IMG/VR virus record: IMGVR_UViG_3300047481_001561
Span: 1-44,657 of that record
DNA length: 44,657 nucleotides
From: a virus
Direction: 5' to 3' (one strand)
In this document: positions 26,372 through 43,722 of the stretch, in pieces
Layout: each line of letters starts with the position of its first letter
Numbering within the stretch: position 1 is the stretch's first letter
Program-made: the position numbers and the translations under genes
Notes under the pieces: generated by a model
What the model was told of the DNA's origin: nothing
Seen by the model: the letters and a program-made list of their open reading frames with translations, nothing else
Database searches by the model: none

Positions 26372-26401
26372 ATTGTAACACTAGTGGTGGTTTAGGGTCA
26401 A
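26372..26401 (-). promoter_or_regulatory. Second promoter just upstream of the small terminase
   Basis: Minus-strand TTGACC (26396-26401), 18-base spacer and TACAAT (26372-26377). The -35 overlaps a copy of the dispersed motif TGACCCTAAACC, so a protein binding the motif would block or modulate this promoter. Confidence 0.6.
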
Positions 26402-28712: not shown

Positions 28713-29405
28713 ATGAAACGACAATACTTCGCTGTTCTAGATACTGAAACGACCATTAACGATACCGTTATGGATTTTGCCATTGTGGTTTGTGACCGTC
28801 ACGGCAAGATTTACAATAGTTGTAGCGTTCTAGTTCGTGAGTTCTATGATCCTGCTACACTGTTCCATGATAAAAATGCTAACGGTTTTTGGTCTAATGC
28901 TAACTTAGAGCGTCGTCGTGCTAATTATCAGAACATGCTAGATTCTGGTACACGTATGCTTGCGTCTGTAACTGCTATAAATAATTGGATCAATAAATGT
29001 ATCGGTACTTATGATCCGATCCTTACTGCATACAATCTAGCTTTCGACTCTAGCAAATGCGCTAATTCTGGTATCGTTCTAGATTCTTTCACTAGCCGCT
29101 TTTGCCTTTGGCAAGCCGCTGTTGGCAATATCTGCCGTTCCAAAAAGTATAAGCGTTTTGTGCTCGACAATCATCGTTTCAATAATGCGACCGATAAAGG
29201 TAATATGACGTTCAAGACTGATGCCGAGACTGTTGCAGGTTTTGTAACTGGTAATCTTATTACTGAGCCGCATACTGCGCTTGAAGATGCTAGAGATTTC
29301 GAGATTCCAATCCTACAAAAAATTGTACGTTCTAAAGGTTGGCGCGATCGCATCGAACCCTATGACTGGAAAAAGTTTCAGGTAAAGGATCATTACAATG
29401 TTTGA
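28713..29405 (+). CDS. DEDD-family 3'-5' exonuclease (DnaQ/RNase T-like)
   Basis: The protein has 230 residues. Exo I is VLDTETT (Asp10, Glu12), Exo II is in AYNLAFDSSK near 110, and Exo III is HTALEDARDFE near 190 (DEDDh type). Such enzymes trim 3' ends of DNA or RNA, as in proofreading or nucleotide scavenging. It overlaps the next gene by 8 bases, forming a three-gene operon with the SemiSWEET-like and SprT-like genes. Confidence 0.85.
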   Translation: MKRQYFAVLDTETTINDTVMDFAIVVCDRHGKIYNSCSVLVREFYDPATLFHDKNANGFWSNANLERRRANYQNMLDSGTRMLASVTAINNWINKCIGTYDPILTAYNLAFDSSKCANSGIVLDSFTSRFCLWQAAVGNICRSKKYKRFVLDNHRFNNATDKGNMTFKTDAETVAGFVTGNLITEPHTALEDARDFEIPILQKIVRSKGWRDRIEPYDWKKFQVKDHYNV

Positions 29406-31235: not shown

Positions 31236-31343
31236 ATTGTTATAAAAAACATAACAATCTTGCGCCAAAATTTTACCACAAAATTTTGGCCGCTGTCAAG
31301 CGATTTTGCCGCCGTTTATCGACCCTAAGCCGCCGCCTGTCGG
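31236..31343 (-). promoter_or_regulatory. Regulatory cassette 5
   Basis: Operators lie at 31312-31322 (CCG-N5-CGA) and 31333-31343, 21 bp apart. The promoter is TTGACA (31294-31299), 18 bases, TAAAAT (31270-31275), then TTGGCGC. ATTGTTAT/ATAACAAT (31236-31258) forms the downstream stem. It follows cassette 4 by about 40 bases with no gene between them. Confidence 0.65.
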
Positions 31344-31436
31344 GTAGTTTTCATAACGGTATAAAAAGCATAATCGTGCTAAATTCTATAAACCATAACG
31401 ATATAGACCCCATAACGATATAGGTTCTATAAACCA

Positions 31437-31454
31437 GCACACCCCTAGGTGTGC
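31437..31454 (-). terminator. Hairpin downstream of the repeat-A promoter
   Basis: GCACACC and GGTGTGC pair across CCTA. On the minus strand it is followed by TGGTTTATAG, so it may end the transcript from the promoter at 31506-31535. Confidence 0.4.
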
Positions 31455-31455
31455 T

Positions 31456-31558
31456 GCGCCAGTGCAAAAACTCAAGTGCAAAACTTTGAGCTGGTCTGCG
31501 CCAACATTATAGTGGAAATCCTTGGGCCAAGTCAAGTAAGTTTTTCTGACCCTAAACC
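31456..31558 (-). repeat. Promoter-bearing direct repeat, copy A
   Basis: This unit and 31633-31743 share TGCGCCAGTGC, AGTGCAAAA, CTGCGCCAACATTATAGTG, AAATCCTTG and TGACCCTAAACC in the same order. On the minus strand it holds TTGACT (31530-31535), 18 bases, TATAAT (31506-31511), then GTTGGCGC, like the cassettes but without CCG-N5-CGG operators. A stem CTCAA/TTGAG followed by TTTTTG lies about 30 bases after the start. Confidence 0.65.
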
Positions 31559-31632
31559 AGAGCAGGTTGCAAGCAGTCCCAAAAAAATTTGCCGCGGTTT
31601 AGGGTCAGGTTGCCACGACCACAAAAAATATT

Positions 31633-31743
31633 TACTTGCGCCAGTGCCTAATCTAGTGCAAAATCAAAATTTCTGTGGTCCTGCGCCAACATTATAGTGC
31701 AAATCCTTGACACAAGTCAAGAGAATTTTTCTGACCCTAAACC
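31633..31743 (-). repeat. Promoter-bearing direct repeat, copy B
   Basis: Second copy of the unit at 31456-31558. The promoter is TTGACT (31715-31720), 18 bases, TATAAT (31691-31696), then GTTGGCGC. The TGACCCTAAACC motif (31732-31743) lies just upstream of an A-rich stretch next to the -35. No gene is present in 31020-31805 on either strand; the stretch is filled by cassettes 4-5 and these repeats. Confidence 0.65.
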
Positions 31744-31765
31744 GTAATAACCCACGGTCACGGGC

Positions 31766-31791
31766 AATAAAAAACCCTGCACAGGGCAGGG
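31766..31791 (-). terminator. Terminator after HTH paralogue 3
   Basis: On the minus strand CCCTG and CAGGG form a stem, followed by TTTTTTATT. It ends the two-gene operon 32911-31806. Confidence 0.75.
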
Positions 31792-31805
31792 CTATTTGTG
31801 TAGGA

Positions 31806-32126
31806 TTAAATCGATTTATCCAGTTTAGGGTCAAGTAATCGCCTGTTAAGTAAGATTAACACCGATTTATTCACCTTTTCTAGGCTTTCTAACTGATCGC
31901 TGGGAACCCCCAATGTTTGGGCAAGTTGTTCGATATACTCCCACTTCTTTACCGGCACCTCGCCACGTTTGTTGAGGTACGTCTTTTTTTGGTAGACACC
32001 CAAACTGGAGAGCTTGGCAATTATGCTACGGTCAGGGACGCCAAGAGTATTAGCAATCTCCAACGTAGTTGCTCCGCCTTTATATTGTTCAACAATCTTA
32101 TCTGTAATTTCTTTGGTATATTTCAT
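31806..32126 (-). CDS. HTH DNA-binding protein, paralogue 3
   Basis: The protein has 106 residues. It shares the layout of the other three copies (KEITDKIVEQYKGG, LEIANTLGVPDRSIIAKL, GEVPVKK, then LESLEKVNKSVLILL) but is more diverged in the HTH. It follows the 32141 gene by 14 bases. No strong ribosome site is visible; the dispersed motif GGTTTAGGGTC sits just upstream. A copy of the motif is also read as codons at its C-terminus (LDPKLDK). Confidence 0.7.
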   Translation of the reverse strand: MKYTKEITDKIVEQYKGGATTLEIANTLGVPDRSIIAKLSSLGVYQKKTYLNKRGEVPVKKWEYIEQLAQTLGVPSDQLESLEKVNKSVLILLNRRLLDPKLDKSI

Positions 32127-32140
32127 GGTAGTTTTTGACC

Positions 32141-32911: not shown

Positions 32912-33067
32912 ATGTTGTAGTCGGGTTAAACCCTAGTTAGGGCTGGTTATGGGGTGGACAATTAATTAAATTAGTTTCGATTTTTAGTTTTTTAAAATTT
33001 TTTAACCGGATTTTTACTACTTAAACTCTTGTGTTGTTGACTTGACCCTAAGCTGCGTCATTCTCAC

Positions 33068-33122
33068 TCAACTTGTAGCTACCGTCTGGCGGGACCCCAA
33101 CCCCCCCGACTGCTACAAGTTG
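33068..33122 (-). other. Leader hairpin with a G-rich loop
   Basis: CAACTTGTAGC and GCTACAAGTTG form an 11-bp stem around a loop of about 30 bases. On the minus strand the loop has a run of seven G and one of four G. It lies in the untranslated leader of the 32141 gene and could be a regulatory RNA element. The rest of 32912-33308 is AT-rich with one promoter and two dispersed motifs. Confidence 0.45.
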
Positions 33123-33175
33123 ATCCTTGCTTTAGTCAGTCAACACACATACATTAATTTTTATAATTATATATG

Positions 33176-33205
33176 ATTATAACATGCGTCTGGTAGTGAT
33201 TTCAA
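33176..33205 (-). promoter_or_regulatory. Promoter for the 32911-31806 operon
   Basis: Minus-strand TTGAAA (33200-33205), 18-base spacer, TATAAT (33176-33181), with an AT-rich upstream stretch. A GGTTTAGGGTCA motif lies 30 bases further upstream (33234-33245). Confidence 0.75.
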
Positions 33206-33308
33206 GTGAATTTTTTCTGTGGAGGTTTGCTATGGTTTAGGGTCAGAGGTGTTAGAAAAACAAGGAAAAACTTTTTTAGAAGGGGTAGTCTGTTTTTCTA
33301 GCGGGTTT

Positions 33309-33515
33309 TTAAAGATAGCGGTTAGTTTCTATGGTGTAGACTAAGAGTTGTGCAAATTCTGGTGTGCTCAATTCACTCTTGTAAAGTCTTAGTCCCCACT
33401 GTGTAAGGGCGGCTGCAATGGCTAGGGTGTCGTCTTGGTAGTGTATGCGTAGCTTGTCGATAAACTCACTTACGTCATCGTTTAATTCTTTTAGCTGCTT
33501 GTCGGTTAATTCCAT
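33309..33515 (-). CDS. Hypothetical small acidic protein
   Basis: The 68-residue product is helical (LTDKQLKELNDDVSEFIDKLRIHYQDDTLAIAAALTQWGLRLYK). AGGAAA is 5 bases before the ATG. It is the first gene after the terminator of the large RNA at 33528-34495 and may be expressed by read-through. No family is recognised. Confidence 0.6.
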   Translation of the reverse strand: MELTDKQLKELNDDVSEFIDKLRIHYQDDTLAIAAALTQWGLRLYKSELSTPEFAQLLVYTIETNRYL

Positions 33516-33524
33516 GTTTTTCCT

Positions 33525-33558
33525 AGTAAAACAAAAGCCCGCACAAGGCGGGCTTTTG
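33525..33558 (-). terminator. Intrinsic terminator of the first large RNA
   Basis: GCCCGC and GCGGGC pair with flanking A/T extensions (AAAA, TTTT) and end in TTTTGTTTT on the minus strand. The shorter TTTT on the other side could also work for the plus strand. Confidence 0.85.
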
Positions 33559-34495
33559 AACTGTACATGTTTTTAGTTTAATGGCGGTGGATTGCTTTTA
33601 TGTAGCGCTACTACGACCACCATACATCTTTGTCTACACTCTAGCTAGTTGCGAATTAGCGTAAGTCGGTGTAGGCGATGCCACGAACATCGGCTGTTCT
33701 TAGTTGCTGTTCGGTCTTGGGTTCCAGCCAAGATATGGGCAACTAGCGCGGGTAGGGTTTTCACCTACATTCCCCACTTAAGGGATGTTTGCTTACAAAA
33801 CCGCGACTAACCCAGGCTCTGGGGTCAGGCCTTGCCATTTATTGTTGGCGCACTGCCCTGTTAGGGCATAATCAGTATTTTATACTAGCTGCGGTATTAT
33901 CTGACTATACATAATACGCTAGACCCTAAACCGGATCGGTTGCCAGGCTAGAGGGCTTATTTCTAGCACACCTTTGCTCTGAGCACGTTTGAGCTACTGG
34001 CATATTTGTTAACGACTGTCTACCCCACAGCTCCAGTTAACTACGGCTTGTGGCATGTAACCCTGAGTTCATTATCCAACTGGGTTGGCAAGAGGAATAG
34101 CTCAAGGACTGTAGTGGGTGGCCGCCATGCACTGTGGCAGAATCGGCTCCACTGGTTTCTAACTCTCGTGTTAGATAACGCATAACTACGTATATGCTAC
34201 GGTAACAGGTCTTTTGGTTAACCCCTATAACTGTTAACAAACTAGGGGGCTGGTTCCTTTAGGGTGGTTAGCAGCTTCCACCATAATGTATATCCGTTCC
34301 GCAGCAGGTCAGCTACGCAAGCTCGTTGGCCGCAGATTTCAACACATTTGTATAACCACCAAAAGGCATGGGGTCAAATCAGCAGTTATACAAATAGGTT
34401 GAGGTGGGTCTGTGTTAAGGGTAAATTCAACACAGATTAAGAACTTATCCAACAGATTAGTGTTGGCCCTGGTTCGCCCTAAACTGTCACTCAAT
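33528..34495 (-). ncRNA. Candidate large structured noncoding RNA 1 (about 970 bases)
   Basis: This minus-strand stretch has no credible gene, begins at a consensus promoter (34502-34530) and ends at a strong terminator. Stems visible in order include TCTGTGTT/AACACAGA, ATTTGTATAAC (34385-34395) with GTTATACAAAT (34346-34356), CCCCTA/TAGGGG, CTAAC-ACGAGA-GTTAG, a two-part stem CTAGC..GTATTAT/ATAATAC..GCTAG (33886-33922), GCCCT/AGGGC, and GTAGG-TGAAAAC-CCTAC (33752-33768). It shares the GGTGAAAnnCC hairpin, a CCCTnAGTGG...AATGT stretch and GGTTTAGGG motifs with the RNA at 37114-38048. It may be related to large phage RNAs such as GOLLD or ROOL, which also lie near phage tRNAs. Confidence 0.65.
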
Positions 34496-34501
34496 AATAA
34501 T

Positions 34502-34530
34502 ATTATACACTACGGGGACTCTTGTTTCAA
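34502..34530 (-). promoter_or_regulatory. Promoter of large RNA 1
   Basis: Minus-strand TTGAAA (34525-34530), 17 bases, TATAAT (34502-34507). The upstream AATATTCAC stretch resembles an UP element shared by the promoters at 33176, 35431, 36094 and 41669. It overlaps the end of the 34510 gene. Confidence 0.85.
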
Positions 34531-34704
34531 GTGAATATTTTTAATTGCCCCTAGGTCTAGCAGTGTTTCGATTACAGTTTGTGGTAGCCCGCTAATTGGG
34601 CCCACATAGTCTGGCAGTCCATAGCCCTGCCAATATTTACAGTTACTGCCAGTTAATTCTACCAAACCCTTGCCAACTTCAACTTCTAGCGTCATCATTG
34701 ACAT
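34510..34704 (-). CDS. Hypothetical small protein
   Basis: The start at 34704 (MSMMTLEVEVGKGLVEL) is chosen because GGAGGAA lies 6 bases upstream; a longer frame would overlap the promoter. The 64-residue product is mildly acidic with no family match (GYGLPDYVGPISGLPQTVIETLLDLGAI). It has its own promoter. Confidence 0.65.
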   Translation of the reverse strand: MSMMTLEVEVGKGLVELTGSNCKYWQGYGLPDYVGPISGLPQTVIETLLDLGAIKNIHLKQESP

Positions 34705-34731
34705 GTGTTGTTCCTCCAGATCAATAATAAT

Positions 34732-34760
34732 ATTATACACTGTTGGGCTGGCCGTTTCAA
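34732..34760 (-). promoter_or_regulatory. Promoter for the 34704 gene
   Basis: Minus-strand TTGAAA (34755-34760), 17 bases, TATAAT (34732-34737). The downstream ATTATTATTGA matches that of the promoters at 34502 and 35431. Confidence 0.85.
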
Positions 34761-36237: not shown

Positions 36238-36447
36238 TTAAAAATAAAATATTAGGTATATGAGTAGGACTAGCGTTGGTATGGCTAGGAGCAGTAATCC
36301 CCAGATTTGTCTGTGGATCATTTCCTGCTCGTAGAGCTCAATCTCTTGGGGGTTAAGCGTTTGCCTAACCTGTTTAGGCAGTTCACTAAAGCCTGTGAAG
36401 AATAGTACCAGACCCAAAACCGTAATAATCGCTAGTAGTATACTCAT
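36238..36447 (-). CDS. Two-helix membrane protein
   Basis: The 69-residue product has two membrane helices (SILLAIITVLGLVLFFTGF and WGLLLLAIPTLVLLIYLIF) joined by an acidic, Gln-rich loop (LPKQVRQTLNPQEIELYEQEM). It overlaps the upstream gene by ATGA. Hairpin topology with both ends on the same side is likely. Function unknown; a holin is possible by topology only. Confidence 0.6.
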   Translation of the reverse strand: MSILLAIITVLGLVLFFTGFSELPKQVRQTLNPQEIELYEQEMIHRQIWGLLLLAIPTLVLLIYLIFYF

Positions 36448-36725
36448 ATGCGCTCAAGCTGCCAATTATTGCAAGTACCACGAATGCCGTCATCATACTC
36501 TACTAGTACATTGCCCCAAAAGCTCTCCGGTCCGTCATAGTGTAACCATTGCTTGATAACTGTAGCCACCATACCATTTGGACCTACTAAGACCTTAGTA
36601 CCACTAGTAAACTTTGCAGTTTGACCACTACTATCTATCTTACAAGTGCAAGCACTAAACTCCTCACACTCGTCGTCTATTTGTAAGAAGTCCCAGTCAG
36701 GGCATAAGTGTTTATACAGTGCCAT
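36444..36725 (-). CDS. Hypothetical protein
   Basis: The start at 36725 (MALYKHLCPDWDFLQIDDE) is chosen because GGAG lies 7 bases upstream and a longer frame would overlap another gene. The 93-residue product has CEEFSACTCK and a beta-rich C-terminal half (TKVLVGPNGMVATVIKQW, GNVLVEYDDGIRGTC) reminiscent of small SH3-like barrels. Confidence 0.6.
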   Translation of the reverse strand: MALYKHLCPDWDFLQIDDECEEFSACTCKIDSSGQTAKFTSGTKVLVGPNGMVATVIKQWLHYDGPESFWGNVLVEYDDGIRGTCNNWQLERI

Positions 36726-36876
36726 AGACACGCTCCAACAAAACCTGTTCAGCTGCTTTAAGTGCAGCGTTCCAACTAGGTGTGTCGTATGGATCGCCGT
36801 CTGCGCCAACGCCCGAATATCCGCGTAGATCATCTAGTACGTCAAGCACAGCCTTGAGTTCAACAATCTGGGTCAT
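36712..36876 (-). CDS. Hypothetical small protein
   Basis: The 54-residue product (MTQIVELKAVLDVLDDLRGY, DTPSWNAALKAAEQVLLERV) is two helices joined by a Gly/Asp loop. It overlaps genes on both sides (14 and 17 bases), a pattern of a tightly packed operon. No family is recognised. Confidence 0.55.
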   Translation of the reverse strand: MTQIVELKAVLDVLDDLRGYSGVGADGDPYDTPSWNAALKAAEQVLLERVYGTV

Positions 36877-37102
36877 AGCTCATCCACTCATCGTATTCAC
36901 TAGGCTCATAAACACTACTATCAATATCGCTAGTAAAGTCGATGGCATCACCAAACTCGTCGTAGACATGGCAATCGTATTGTGTTGGATCTGCATCTGC
37001 ATGCCACCTAGCGAACTCCAATCTAGCCTCGTAAAGGTAATCAACCTCAAACTCATCAACAACGGCACTAGTCAAGCTGTTAACAACTTTACACTTATAC
37101 AT
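36860..37102 (-). CDS. Hypothetical acidic protein
   Basis: The start at 37102 (MYKCKVVNSLTSAVVDEFEV) is chosen because GGAG lies 5 bases upstream and a longer frame would cross the terminator of large RNA 2. The 80-residue product is strongly acidic at its end (SDIDSSVYEPSEYDEWMSYDPDC). It may be expressed by read-through past that terminator. Confidence 0.6.
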   Translation of the reverse strand: MYKCKVVNSLTSAVVDEFEVDYLYEARLEFARWHADADPTQYDCHVYDEFGDAIDFTSDIDSSVYEPSEYDEWMSYDPDC

Positions 37103-37113
37103 TTGTTCTCCAG

Positions 37114-38048
37114 ACAAAAATGGCAGCCAAGTGGCTGCCAAAGAAAAACCATACAAAAGCTGATTACTATTCCTCACCTTTTGGGCGCTACACTACATGG
37201 CTAGCTATGCTTGTATCGAACCCTAATCAGCTTTTGTATGGCTACCGGTTACAAAATCCGGCGTTACACTTTCGGAGTAACTGTTCTACCTATCCCGCTA
37301 CCCTACTTCGTTTAAGACTCGCCGCCTTTATACACGCTGATAGCCACGTGTTATGATATTGCTATCATATTCAAACACATTTGAACCTTTCTTCTGTGCT
37401 CAGACACAATCTCCCATCTAGAGTGGGCGTGGGGTATGTGCTTGAATATGATACCAGTCCCTAAACTGGATCATATTGTCTTTTTACTCTAGGACGACAG
37501 TCCGCAAGTCTCAAATAGCCCTATGCGTAGTCCACCATCACTCGCATATTTTAGTTGACGGGACTTTCACCCGCCTCGACATTGGCCGCCTAGCCACTAG
37601 GGAAATGTGACAGCAAGCTTATCGGGCCTTATTATCCTTACCCTAAACCGCGGCAGGTGATAGTATTGAGGCTATCAGCGTCAACCTTGTGGGTTTTGGG
37701 TTTCGCTGGAGTTGCACCAGCTCATCAGAGGATTTAGTTAGCTACCACTCCCACATGGCCCTAACTTGAGCAGTTACTCTGTCCATACCTTAGTCGGGGT
37801 AAGGTACGCCCCGTTACCGTTTTACCCTAAACCTGGATGAATGGCCCAGTGGGAGGTCTGGCAACTAACCTAAAGCCTCTAACGCTAGCTTTATCGCGCT
37901 CGGCCATTGGGTATGGCCGAGATTAGTTAGTACAGTCAGTGGTCGCTACAATGCACATTTTGTGTAATATATAAATATTTATTTAGTGTGGCAAAATGTC
38001 ATTTAAAGCTGTGGGCCTTGTCAGGCTTTACTTTCCTCACTGACTATA
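37114..38048 (-). ncRNA. Candidate large structured noncoding RNA 2 (about 935 bases)
   Basis: This minus-strand stretch lacks genes, starts at a consensus promoter (38055-38083) and ends in a GC-rich T-run terminator. Clear stems include CTCGGCCAT-ACCC-AATGGCCGAG, GCGGG-TGAAAGT-CCCGT (37557-37575), TATCATATTCAA/TTGAATATGATA (37363-37374 with 37442-37453), CCAGT/ACTGG, and an 18-bp perfect long-range stem near the 3' end (37149-37166 with 37224-37241). It has three GGTTTAGGG-type motifs (37457, 37639, 37823). Promoter type, length, shared hairpin and motifs link it to the RNA at 33528-34495. Confidence 0.65.
37116..37140 (-). terminator. Intrinsic terminator of large RNA 2
   Basis: TGGCAGCC and GGCTGCCA form an 8-bp stem with an ACTT loop, followed by TTTTTG on the minus strand. 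Confidence 0.9.
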
Positions 38049-38054
38049 AATAAT

Positions 38055-39229: not shown

Positions 39230-39365
39230 GTTTTAGTTCCTCTATGTGTTCTTCTATGATTTTTGCAGCCATTTGATTGAAAGTAATGTCCAATTCATGC
39301 GCACGCTTAGCAATGTGCAAGAACTCTTCATCAGTTAGCTCAACTTGTACAGTTTCCATTTCCAT
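39210..39365 (-). CDS. Ribbon-helix-helix-like small protein
   Basis: The 51-residue product, METVQVELTDEEFLHIAKRA then FNQMAAKIIEEHIEEL, has a short strand followed by two helices, the layout of Arc/MetJ-type DNA-binding proteins. Its ATG overlaps the stop of the metallophosphoesterase gene (TAATG). It could be a regulator of this block. Confidence 0.55.
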   Translation of the reverse strand: MEMETVQVELTDEEFLHIAKRAHELDITFNQMAAKIIEEHIEELKRGTHNS

Positions 39366-39928
39366 TACATGGCCCTTTCGCCGTGTTCGTGAAAGCCCAC
39401 ATGACCGCCACGAAATTTAATTATACGCTTACATTCTTCAAAACTGATTGGTGTGTAGTTGACACGCTCTACACTTACGTTAAAGTATCTAGGGTCAACT
39501 TTATCCCCAGGCAGTACAACCTCGCGGTAGTGCAGGTGACCATGTATATTACAGCCAAATCTAGCCAGACTATCTGGGTGTACTGGTATATGACTCAACA
39601 GCATACCATCAAGTACATGATAGCCACGAACATCGTCTACATAACTGAGGTATTCTTCAGCAGGAAAAATATCGTGATTGCCTTTGATCAACACTTTACG
39701 TCCACGTAGTCTGTCTAGGGTATGTATACTCTTGCGATTGATAACCACATCACCTAGCATGTATACACGGTCTTTAACCCCAACAACACGATTCCAGTTC
39801 TCAATCATGTGCTCGTCCATCTCCTCAACACTACTAAAGGGGCGCAGCCAAGTGCCGTCGTGTCGGGTAAACTTTATAATGTTTGCATGACCAAAGTGCA
39901 TGTCACTGATAAGCCAACAATTACTCAT
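39365..39928 (-). CDS. Calcineurin-like metallophosphoesterase
   Basis: The protein has 187 residues with the family motifs in order: SDMHFGH (Asp9, His11), GDVV, GNHD, SHIPVH and HGHLHY. It hydrolyses phosphodiesters or phosphomonoesters with two metal ions. Phage homologues are often annotated as nucleotide or polynucleotide phosphoesterases, and the substrate here is unknown. It lies in a run of overlapping small genes, so it is co-transcribed with them. Confidence 0.85.
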   Translation of the reverse strand: MSNCWLISDMHFGHANIIKFTRHDGTWLRPFSSVEEMDEHMIENWNRVVGVKDRVYMLGDVVINRKSIHTLDRLRGRKVLIKGNHDIFPAEEYLSYVDDVRGYHVLDGMLLSHIPVHPDSLARFGCNIHGHLHYREVVLPGDKVDPRYFNVSVERVNYTPISFEECKRIIKFRGGHVGFHEHGERAM

Positions 39929-42711: not shown

Positions 42712-43722
42712 CTAGTGTTTGATTTGACTCCAGACTCGACTGCGTATGTCTGCCTGTAACTTATCAGGTAAGTGAACATAATCAAGTTCTGCACTTAATT
42801 TCGCACCGTTTTTAAATGCCCAGTCAAAAAACTTGACAACTTCTTGACTAGCCTTTTTATCCTGTGGTTCACGATACATAATTATAAAGCTAGCAGTAGT
42901 CACAGGCCAAGTATCCTTGCCAGGTTGATTTACAATGCTCAAGCCCATGCCTGGAACACTAAACCAGTCTGCTCCTGCTGCAGCTGCTGCAAAAGTTGTG
43001 TCATCAGGAGCAACAAAGTTACCGGCTCTGTTTTGTAACAACATAAAATTCATATTGTTTTTCTTTACATAGGCATATTCGACATAACCAATACTGCCTT
43101 TAATTCTGTTTACATTAGCAGCAACACCTTCGTTACCTTTGCCACCTACTGAGCTAGTAGCGGGCCATTTTACTGCTGCTCCTCGTCCAACTCGTTTCTC
43201 CCACTCTGGGCTAATACTAGTGAGATAATCAGTCCAATTAAAAGTAGTACCAGATCCATCAGCTCTATGAACCACTGTAATGTTGGTGTTGGGTAGGGAT
43301 TTCCCAGGATTAAGTTTAACAAGCTTATCATCGTTCCATTTGGTAATGTTTCCCATAAAAACTTCTGCCATGACAGGCCCTGTAATGCGAAGTTCACCTG
43401 CCTTGAATCCATCAAGATTGATAACAGGCACTGTGCCACCGATGATAGCAGGGAATTGAACTTGTCCCAATTTGTCAAGGTCTTCGCCTTTTACCGGAGC
43501 GTCACTAGCCCCAAATGCAACAGTCTTATTATTGATCTGACGAATACCGCCACTGCTTCCGATACTTTGGTAGTTTAATGTGTTGCCCGTAGCTTTGTTA
43601 TATGCTTCTGCCCACTTAGCATAAATGGGATATGGAAATGTAGCACCTGCTCCAGTAATTTCTGCCGCTTGTGCTGTTAGACTAATTGTTAGTCCTGTGA
43701 TGAGTGATAATAAACGTTTCAT
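42712..43722 (-). CDS. pstS: PstS-like periplasmic phosphate-binding protein
   Basis: The protein has 336 residues, the normal PstS length. A signal peptide (MKRLLSLITGLTISLTAQA) is followed by the mature start ITGAGATFPYPIYAKW. Phosphate-binding segments are visible: SIGSSGGIRQI, FGASDAPV and VHRADGSGTTF. It would deliver phosphate to the host PstCAB transporter during infection, an auxiliary metabolic role known for pstS genes of aquatic phages. AGAGG precedes the ATG. No Pho box is recognised. It resembles betaproteobacterial PstS from memory, suggesting capture from such a host. Confidence 0.9.
   Translation of the reverse strand: MKRLLSLITGLTISLTAQAAEITGAGATFPYPIYAKWAEAYNKATGNTLNYQSIGSSGGIRQINNKTVAFGASDAPVKGEDLDKLGQVQFPAIIGGTVPVINLDGFKAGELRITGPVMAEVFMGNITKWNDDKLVKLNPGKSLPNTNITVVHRADGSGTTFNWTDYLTSISPEWEKRVGRGAAVKWPATSSVGGKGNEGVAANVNRIKGSIGYVEYAYVKKNNMNFMLLQNRAGNFVAPDDTTFAAAAAGADWFSVPGMGLSIVNQPGKDTWPVTTASFIIMYREPQDKKASQEVVKFFDWAFKNGAKLSAELDYVHLPDKLQADIRSRVWSQIKH

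Follow-up and report, generated by a model that had tools for sequence, protein, structure and literature searches.

The window analysed here, i.e., the whole stretch of 44,657 bases from one virus record, belongs to a tailed phage, as indicated by its portal, terminase, head, and tail genes, and carries a large structured non-coding RNA, hereafter RNA1, that sequence comparison confirms as a real feature. The reading that we favour with moderate confidence is that RNA1 is a free-standing phage gene whose RNA is itself the product, acting in trans as a scaffold or particle and representing a new family. The host RNA polymerase would start at a sigma-70-type promoter and produce a transcript of about 970 nt stopping at an intrinsic terminator, two steps deduced from conserved sequence. 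Covariation and the gain and loss of modules show that the RNA folds around two or more conserved cores, combined with side modules that can be exchanged; during infection, it would serve in trans as a stable RNA scaffold or a multimeric particle. This last step is drawn by analogy with the roles suggested for the GOLLD and ROOL RNAs, since the size of RNA1, its setting, and its two cores with tolerated modules follow the pattern of giant phage RNAs. Few bacterial or phage RNA families are known to be as large. A covariation-supported family of this size is of interest in that the presence or absence of modules provides natural deletion variants showing which parts are dispensable.

RNA1 occupies an ORF-poor stretch between two ORFs (34510-34740 and 33309-33515, both minus), with a predicted start near 34495 and an end near 33528 (Table 1). 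The original prediction had placed it at 33528-34495 with its own promoter and terminator; these limits were right to within a few bases, and both elements were found, the perfect 11-bp stem noticed at the time being the terminator stem (33558-33532, minus). The promoter block TTGAA...TATAATATT is kept in all five sequences that include the 5′ end (one relative, G040, is cut off there) and the terminator in all six; because both are kept, a discrete RNA1 transcript is likely. The predicted fold of the RNA strand (-313.6 kcal/mol) was better than that of all 20 dinucleotide shuffles (-278.2, sd 7.9; z -4.5), with a weaker folding excess on the opposite strand (z -2.4). The window holds two copies of a 40-nt promoter block 230 bp from each other (34491-34530 and 34721-34760, 78% identical), one ahead of RNA1 and the other ahead of ORF 34510-34740, and the promoter of a second giant RNA of the same phage (RNA2, see below) is of the same type.

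Relatives were searched in 43 IMG/VR records, 38 of them obtained via the portal protein (from the 80 portal loci kept out of 348 relatives) and five via the 68-aa ORF located behind the terminator, using the DNA of RNA1 and RNA2 as queries. RNA1-related DNA was found in seven other records: one identical (G001), five divergent (G043, G040, G041, G012, and G042), and one reduced to a 44-nt tip (G039). Six distinct sequences, from the window and the five divergent relatives, were used in all counts; G001, whose RNA1 does not differ from that of the window, and G039, which only has the last 44 nt, were left out, and the G040 contig begins within RNA1 and has no 5′ end. The complete copies measure 973 (cut at 33524-34496), 855, 921, 1155, and 1076 nt, and the truncated G040 copy 934 nt. 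Matches of 16-18 nt in G013 and G016 (E 0.04-0.06) were taken as chance. When 25 of the 43 records were searched with covariance models of the two cores (R1 and R2), the six known records were recovered; two low-scoring R1 matches, one in G038 (8.9 bits) and one in G029 (5.0 bits), were also taken as chance, and R1 gave no match in the 42 remaining portal loci (fragments of 3-9 kb).

Further from this group, blastn of RNA1 against 50,697 annotated phage records revealed no close DNA relative. The portal protein itself is 39.9% identical to its top-listed match among annotated phages, all 1,531 matching records being below 60%, and a search of genome_contigs turned up no relative of this protein. 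Exact RNA1 words occurred in 16, 10, 7, and 11 stretches of viral_contigs, including 20 loci outside the known relatives; these 20 loci gave weak matches only with nhmmer (best E 0.12 over 44 nt, in L190), no match with R1, and a single one with R2 at E 6.3, and one RNA1 word searched in genome_contigs had no match. As judged from these sequence searches, the RNA1 family is narrow so far.

One could suspect an artefact, i.e., a decayed gene or a protein gene that went undetected, as short open frames do occur in single sequences; start-to-stop ORFs on the RNA strand reach 67 aa at most (34037-34240, TTG start). This longest ORF is broken in relatives, however, and no conserved protein frame was found in the stretch: all eight window frames of at least 45 codons tested with tblastn meet a stop in at least one relative, 67 of the 84 pairwise indels in RNA1 have lengths not divisible by three, and bases that pair change in concert (see below). 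Sequence comparison has already refuted this reading, to which we leave a minute probability.

Covariation was then looked for in the homologues, and compensatory changes are present by pair counts in the six sequences, although one has to keep in mind that six sequences represent few independent changes. Mean column identity is 89% in the alignment of the 5′ core (A3) and 88% in that of the 3′ half (A4). In A4, 13 of the 72 consensus pairs show changes of both partners that preserve the pairing, in 8 of the 15 helices (shuffles: mean 7.0, with none out of 500 as high as 13), and in A3, 7 of the 56 pairs do so (2.8 in shuffles, 1 out of 500 as high); these shuffles ignore the relatedness of the sequences, so such frequencies are not probabilities. 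Six of the seven two-sided pairs of A3 are located in one hairpin, and eight of its ten helices have none. When further pair types are counted, 202 of 500 shuffles score as high as A3, which is no excess, and 35 of 500 as high as A4, a weak one. A second control, in which the partners were slid by one to three columns, keeps the relatedness but favours any structure derived from the same sequences, as is the case here: paired cells dropped from 97.7% to 30-39% in A4 and from 96.7% to 33-49% in A3. Over the whole length, with columns present in fewer than four of the six sequences dropped, as in all whole-length scans for folds, loops, and long matches, the alignment contains 156 conserved runs of at least six pairs, whereas 40 column permutations, which do not keep neighbouring bases together, average 27.

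Much of the covariation case is carried by the hairpin at 34158-34175, whose stem reads UCUAAC/GUUAGA, CUUACU/AGUAAG, or CUAUAA/UUAUAG depending on the sequence. The long hairpin at 34338-34402 combines a changing stem with a conserved loop (z -6.2; 26 consensus pairs, of which 6 two-sided, and 6 unpaired cells); its 18-nt, 89% complementary stem (34339-34356/34385-34402) is probably the two-part stem reported in the original prediction. More generally, long invariant blocks, such as GACCUGUUACCGUAGCAUAUACGUAGUUAUGCGUUA, alternate with stems of changing sequence along the RNA1 alignment. The wider fold of the 5′ core and the overall fold, both of them models, are less settled than single hairpins, since the isolated 5′ core folds partly differently from the whole alignment.

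Table 1. Coordinates of RNA1, its elements, and neighbouring features (window positions unless a locus is given).
Feature	Position	Strand	Details
RNA1	33528..34495	minus	~968 nt, from predicted start to U-run of terminator; non-coding
RNA1 promoter	34502..34530	minus	-35 TTGAAA, 17-nt spacer, -10 TATAAT; sigma-70-type; 11/12 consensus
RNA1 intrinsic terminator	33532..33558	minus	11-bp stem, then U-run
5′ core domain	34119..34345	minus	alignment A3, model R1, pair counts
3′ core domain	33582..33855	minus	alignment A4, model R2, pair counts
Hairpin, 6/6 pairs changed on both sides	34158..34175	minus	invariant loop ACGAGA, 34164-34169
Hairpin, 3/5 pairs changed on both sides	33685..33699	minus	pair counts
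Long hairpin, changing stem and conserved loop GACCCYAUGC	34338..34402	minus	loop 34367-34374; GAUCCCAUGC in G042
Optional module, 108 nt	34003..34110	minus	absent from G043, G041, and G042; present in G012; partly in G040
Insertion site, 156 nt in G042	34403..34406	minus	3′ part of the insert also opens the truncated G040 copy
Insertion site, ~105 nt in G012 and G040	34345..34346	minus	alignment
Fourth variable site (approximate bounds)	33868..33946	minus	other sequence and length in G041, G012, G042, and G040
Motif GUUUAGGGUC	33922..33931	minus	UUUAGGGUC kept in 6/6 though surroundings exchanged
68-aa ORF, function unassigned	33309..33515	minus	starts 16 nt after terminator stem
RNA2, second giant RNA	37121..38050	minus	promoter, structured RNA, terminator, ORF: same layout as RNA1
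RNA2 hammerhead-like cores	L148 431-485; L146 392-453		Hammerhead_3 matches / core by sequence

Modules of roughly 50-160 nt have been gained or lost at four sites in RNA1. Folded alone, the optional modules are no more stable than shuffles (z -1.3, -1.1, 0.2, and -0.9), and these folding scores count mildly against each of them being a separate domain. The loop ACCCUAAA (34265-34258) is complementary to the motif at 33930-33923, the 8-bp match being conserved in all six sequences, and the two form a candidate pseudoknot or kissing contact. It is the sole long non-nested match, and about one conserved 8-bp match of this kind is expected by chance. Hairpin-loop to hairpin-loop complementarity of at least 5 bp conserved in all six sequences was not found in the one predicted structure considered, so no kissing contacts like those of the known RNA cages were seen in that structure.

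These motifs bear on another possible role, in which RNA1 would pair with phage transcripts and thereby regulate them: copies of the GUUUAGGGUC motif are dispersed through the genome, and the loops ACCCUAAA and GACCCYAUG of RNA1 are complementary to it. The window contains 14 sites within one mismatch of GTTTAGGGTC compared with a mean of 2.2 in five shuffles (which keep single-base composition only), one of them some 10 nt upstream of where the regulator-like gene 31806-32126 starts, and the 8-bp match is conserved in the six sequences. However, about one such match is to be expected by chance, as said above, and the motif occurs on both strands, with two copies upstream of -35 boxes, an arrangement that suits a DNA operator better than RNA pairing; we consider regulation by base pairing improbable. 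The sites are found at 26390, 31321-32137, 33044-33235, 33922, and 36411-37823, RNA1 and RNA2 included; the two copies mentioned lie directly upstream of their -35 boxes, others flank the regulator-like gene, and the motif may be a DNA operator.

The main rival to a self-standing RNA starts from what lies behind the terminator. The 68-aa ORF was found in six records by a pattern search that can miss diverged copies, and in five of the six sequences (window, G043, G040, G041, and G042) a gap of only 16-22 nt separates its start from the terminator stem, leaving no room for a promoter; RNA2 shows the same ORF-after-terminator layout in four out of four cases. RNA1 could, thus, be a giant cis-acting leader, either an attenuator or riboswitch-like, gating read-through into the next gene. 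The window, G043, and G041 share one homologous place where 6-7 contiguous pairs (wobble allowed) can form with the 5′ arm of the terminator, and G040, G012, and G042 have a 6-pair segment for this arm at another place, but no antiterminator place is common to all six sequences among the best three listed for each. Likewise, relatives of RNA1 gave a few weak riboswitch matches (SAM-II and AdoCbl-II, E 3 to 8.2), but on RNA1 all riboswitch and leader families stay below their Rfam gathering scores, and the leader matches fall on the terminator end. In G012, which is not among the records found with the 68-aa ORF, a different long ORF follows the terminator; this change of next gene fits an RNA working on its own. 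Finally, we know of no attenuator of at least 900 nt with optional modules. We, therefore, hold the leader to be unlikely, less so than regulation by base pairing, and both readings may be right in part, with a self-standing RNA1 whose leaky terminator feeds the small gene.

RNA1 was also compared with known RNA families. At Rfam gathering scores, the whole window contains four tRNAs only, and a permissive scan (E<=10) of RNA1 and its relatives gave weak matches, mostly at the terminator end, with neither GOLLD nor ROOL among them. The GOLLD model matched weakly in 4 of 13 records, none over the cut-off and none in RNA1 (controls: 5 of 14 weak, none over), and the ROOL model matched none of the 13 records at E<=10 and none of the 14 control genomes. 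One of the weak GOLLD matches (G040, 29101-29256, 11.1 bits, E 0.022) lies inside an open frame of 1429 codons and was discarded. The original prediction had hesitated between a relative of GOLLD or ROOL and a new class; the negative Rfam searches, with controls that stay below the cut-off as well, favour the latter. The sequence evidence thus supports RNA1 as a new family of giant ornate phage RNAs that is neither GOLLD nor ROOL. No description of RNA1 was found in the literature covered (mostly open papers, with searches that were not aimed at this phage group).

The same scans bear on whether RNA1 might be a catalytic RNA, self-cleaving or intron-like. Its neighbour RNA2 holds a hammerhead-like core, and highly conserved junctions such as those of RNA1 would be typical of ribozymes; no ribozyme or intron family was found on RNA1 at E<=10, however, and the group II intron model group-II-D1D4-1 (RF01998) matched none of the 13 records (controls: 9 of 14 matched, 2 over the cut-off), so that we give catalysis a low probability, similar to that of base-pairing regulation. 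The one intron match obtained (13.9 bits, E 9.4) sits in RNA2. A supposed resemblance of GGGUGAAAGUCCC in RNA2 and GUAGGUGAAAACCCUAC in RNA1 to part of group II introns found no support in the group II model search.

The analogy behind the proposed trans-acting scaffold or particle has to be weighed feature by feature. According to the published account, Rfam profiles of March 2024 retrieved 806 GOLLD and 1,596 ROOL sequences, both RNAs form cages, and their function is an open question (PMC12286853). Like RNA1, GOLLD (RF02032) is described there as phage-borne, longer than 800 nt, and rich in stems, with conserved and exchangeable parts (PMC12286853); with 855-1155 nt in its five complete copies, RNA1 falls within this size class of phage-borne RNAs above about 800 nt. 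GOLLD is also reported from phages with tRNA islands (PMC12286853), and RNA1 has tRNA genes at the same genome end. The proximity to tRNA genes claimed in the original prediction holds only in this broad sense and is weak for RNA1, the nearest tRNA being 9.4 kb away (43877). This distance is 8.4-9.4 kb in the window, G043, and G042, all three having the order tRNA genes, RNA2, and RNA1, with RNA2 in between. RNA1 differs from GOLLD in having no covariance-model match and no tRNA inside, and in its four variable sites with both cores conserved, whereas GOLLD has a conserved 3′ region and a less conserved 5′ half. GOLLD assembles as a 14-mer RNA cage via kissing loops and A-minor contacts; in the one predicted structure of RNA1 considered, no conserved loop-loop complementarity was seen (see above). 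ROOL (RF03087) shares with RNA1 the large size, the phage or prophage setting, the multiple stems, and a variable linker (PMC12286853), but the ROOL model, with its 574 positions, falls about 400 nt short of RNA1.

Large RNAs have also been described in other lytic phages. An RNA of about 800 nt is reported as the most abundant transcript of Vibrio phage ICP1 (PMC7567579), and phage K is reported to have the long RNAs lnc001 and lnc002 (PMC9241854); as described in these sources, they resemble RNA1 by their size range and their location in an ORF-free gap of a lytic phage (PMC9241854, PMC7567579). R1 and R2 had no match in the two phage K stretches, and the comparison with ICP1 is one of descriptions only. 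No large-RNA Rfam family was found in the phage K stretches at E<=1. A sub-threshold match to DUF3800-I RNA (43.4 bits, cut-off 44.2) overlaps the end of lnc001 (L203, 1133-1269).

RNA2 provides an internal comparison for RNA1, being a second giant RNA in the same genome. It shares with RNA1 the promoter type, the size, the terminator, the ORF directly behind, and the GUUUAGGG motifs, and folds with a z of -8.8. Yet the best blastn match between the two is at E 0.14, and R1 and R2 have no match in RNA2; apart from a short motif, no relationship between the two RNAs can be detected. Clear relatives of RNA2 are present in G001, G043, G042, and G012, and a weaker one in G035; G034 and G035 have a stretch of about 100 nt of RNA2 in common. 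Matches of 15-24 nt in G013, G015, G018, G029, and G038 were taken as chance. The hammerhead-like core of RNA2 (CUGAUGA, a stem II of changing sequence, and GAAA) is found in the window, G043, G012, and G042; with the Rfam model Hammerhead_3, G012 reaches 28.0 bits and G043 23.2, both under the gathering score of 48.5, and the window and G042 give no listed match at E<=10.

In G035 (L200, 357-1600) and G034 (L201, from 2598 downwards), a tRNA-Glu is followed, about 100 nt away or less, by the same hammerhead-like core. In these 100-kb relatives, the core is followed by an ORF-poor stretch of about 1.1 kb, with frames of up to 98 codons in G035; this stretch may be a third giant RNA, and R1 and R2 have no match in the ORF-poor stretches of the two records. 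Conversely, no ORF-free gap above 736 nt was found in G011, G032, G008, and G013 (the latter without its final 3.8 kb) when ORFs below 80 codons were ignored, a scan that is blind to a giant RNA holding a chance frame of 80 codons; giant RNAs are likely absent from these four records. A more ambitious picture, which we put forward as possible but doubtful, is that of a phage lineage with several unrelated giant RNA genes side by side (RNA1, RNA2, and the 1.1-kb stretch) that would be exchanged and remodelled like cassettes, some of them with hammerhead cores freeing them from adjoining transcripts, and with RNA1 self-assembling into an RNA-only particle. If this picture is true, giant RNA particles would be a common phage tool rather than a pair of oddities.

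Other features were observed in these phages. Directly behind the RNA2-like stretch of G035 (L149, 807-977), a tRNA match of 40.3 bits extends over 171 nt, i.e., a tRNA interrupted by some 100 extra nucleotides, which ARAGORN does not report. G042 apparently has its own tmRNA (L217, 180-609), in a permuted form according to ARAGORN, with the tag ANDEVFALAA; the Rfam scores are 96.5 bits for beta_tmRNA and 114 bits for tmRNA_permuted, and this tmRNA may hint at a betaproteobacterial host. In the window, a stem AACTTGTAGC/GCTACAAGTT round a C-rich loop, seen by eye in an ORF-poor stretch (33070-33125), is perhaps a small RNA. Lastly, a phosphate-binding-protein-like gene (42712-43722) adjoins the tRNAs and a phosphoesterase-like gene is located at 39365-39928; both are possible phosphate-related auxiliary genes.
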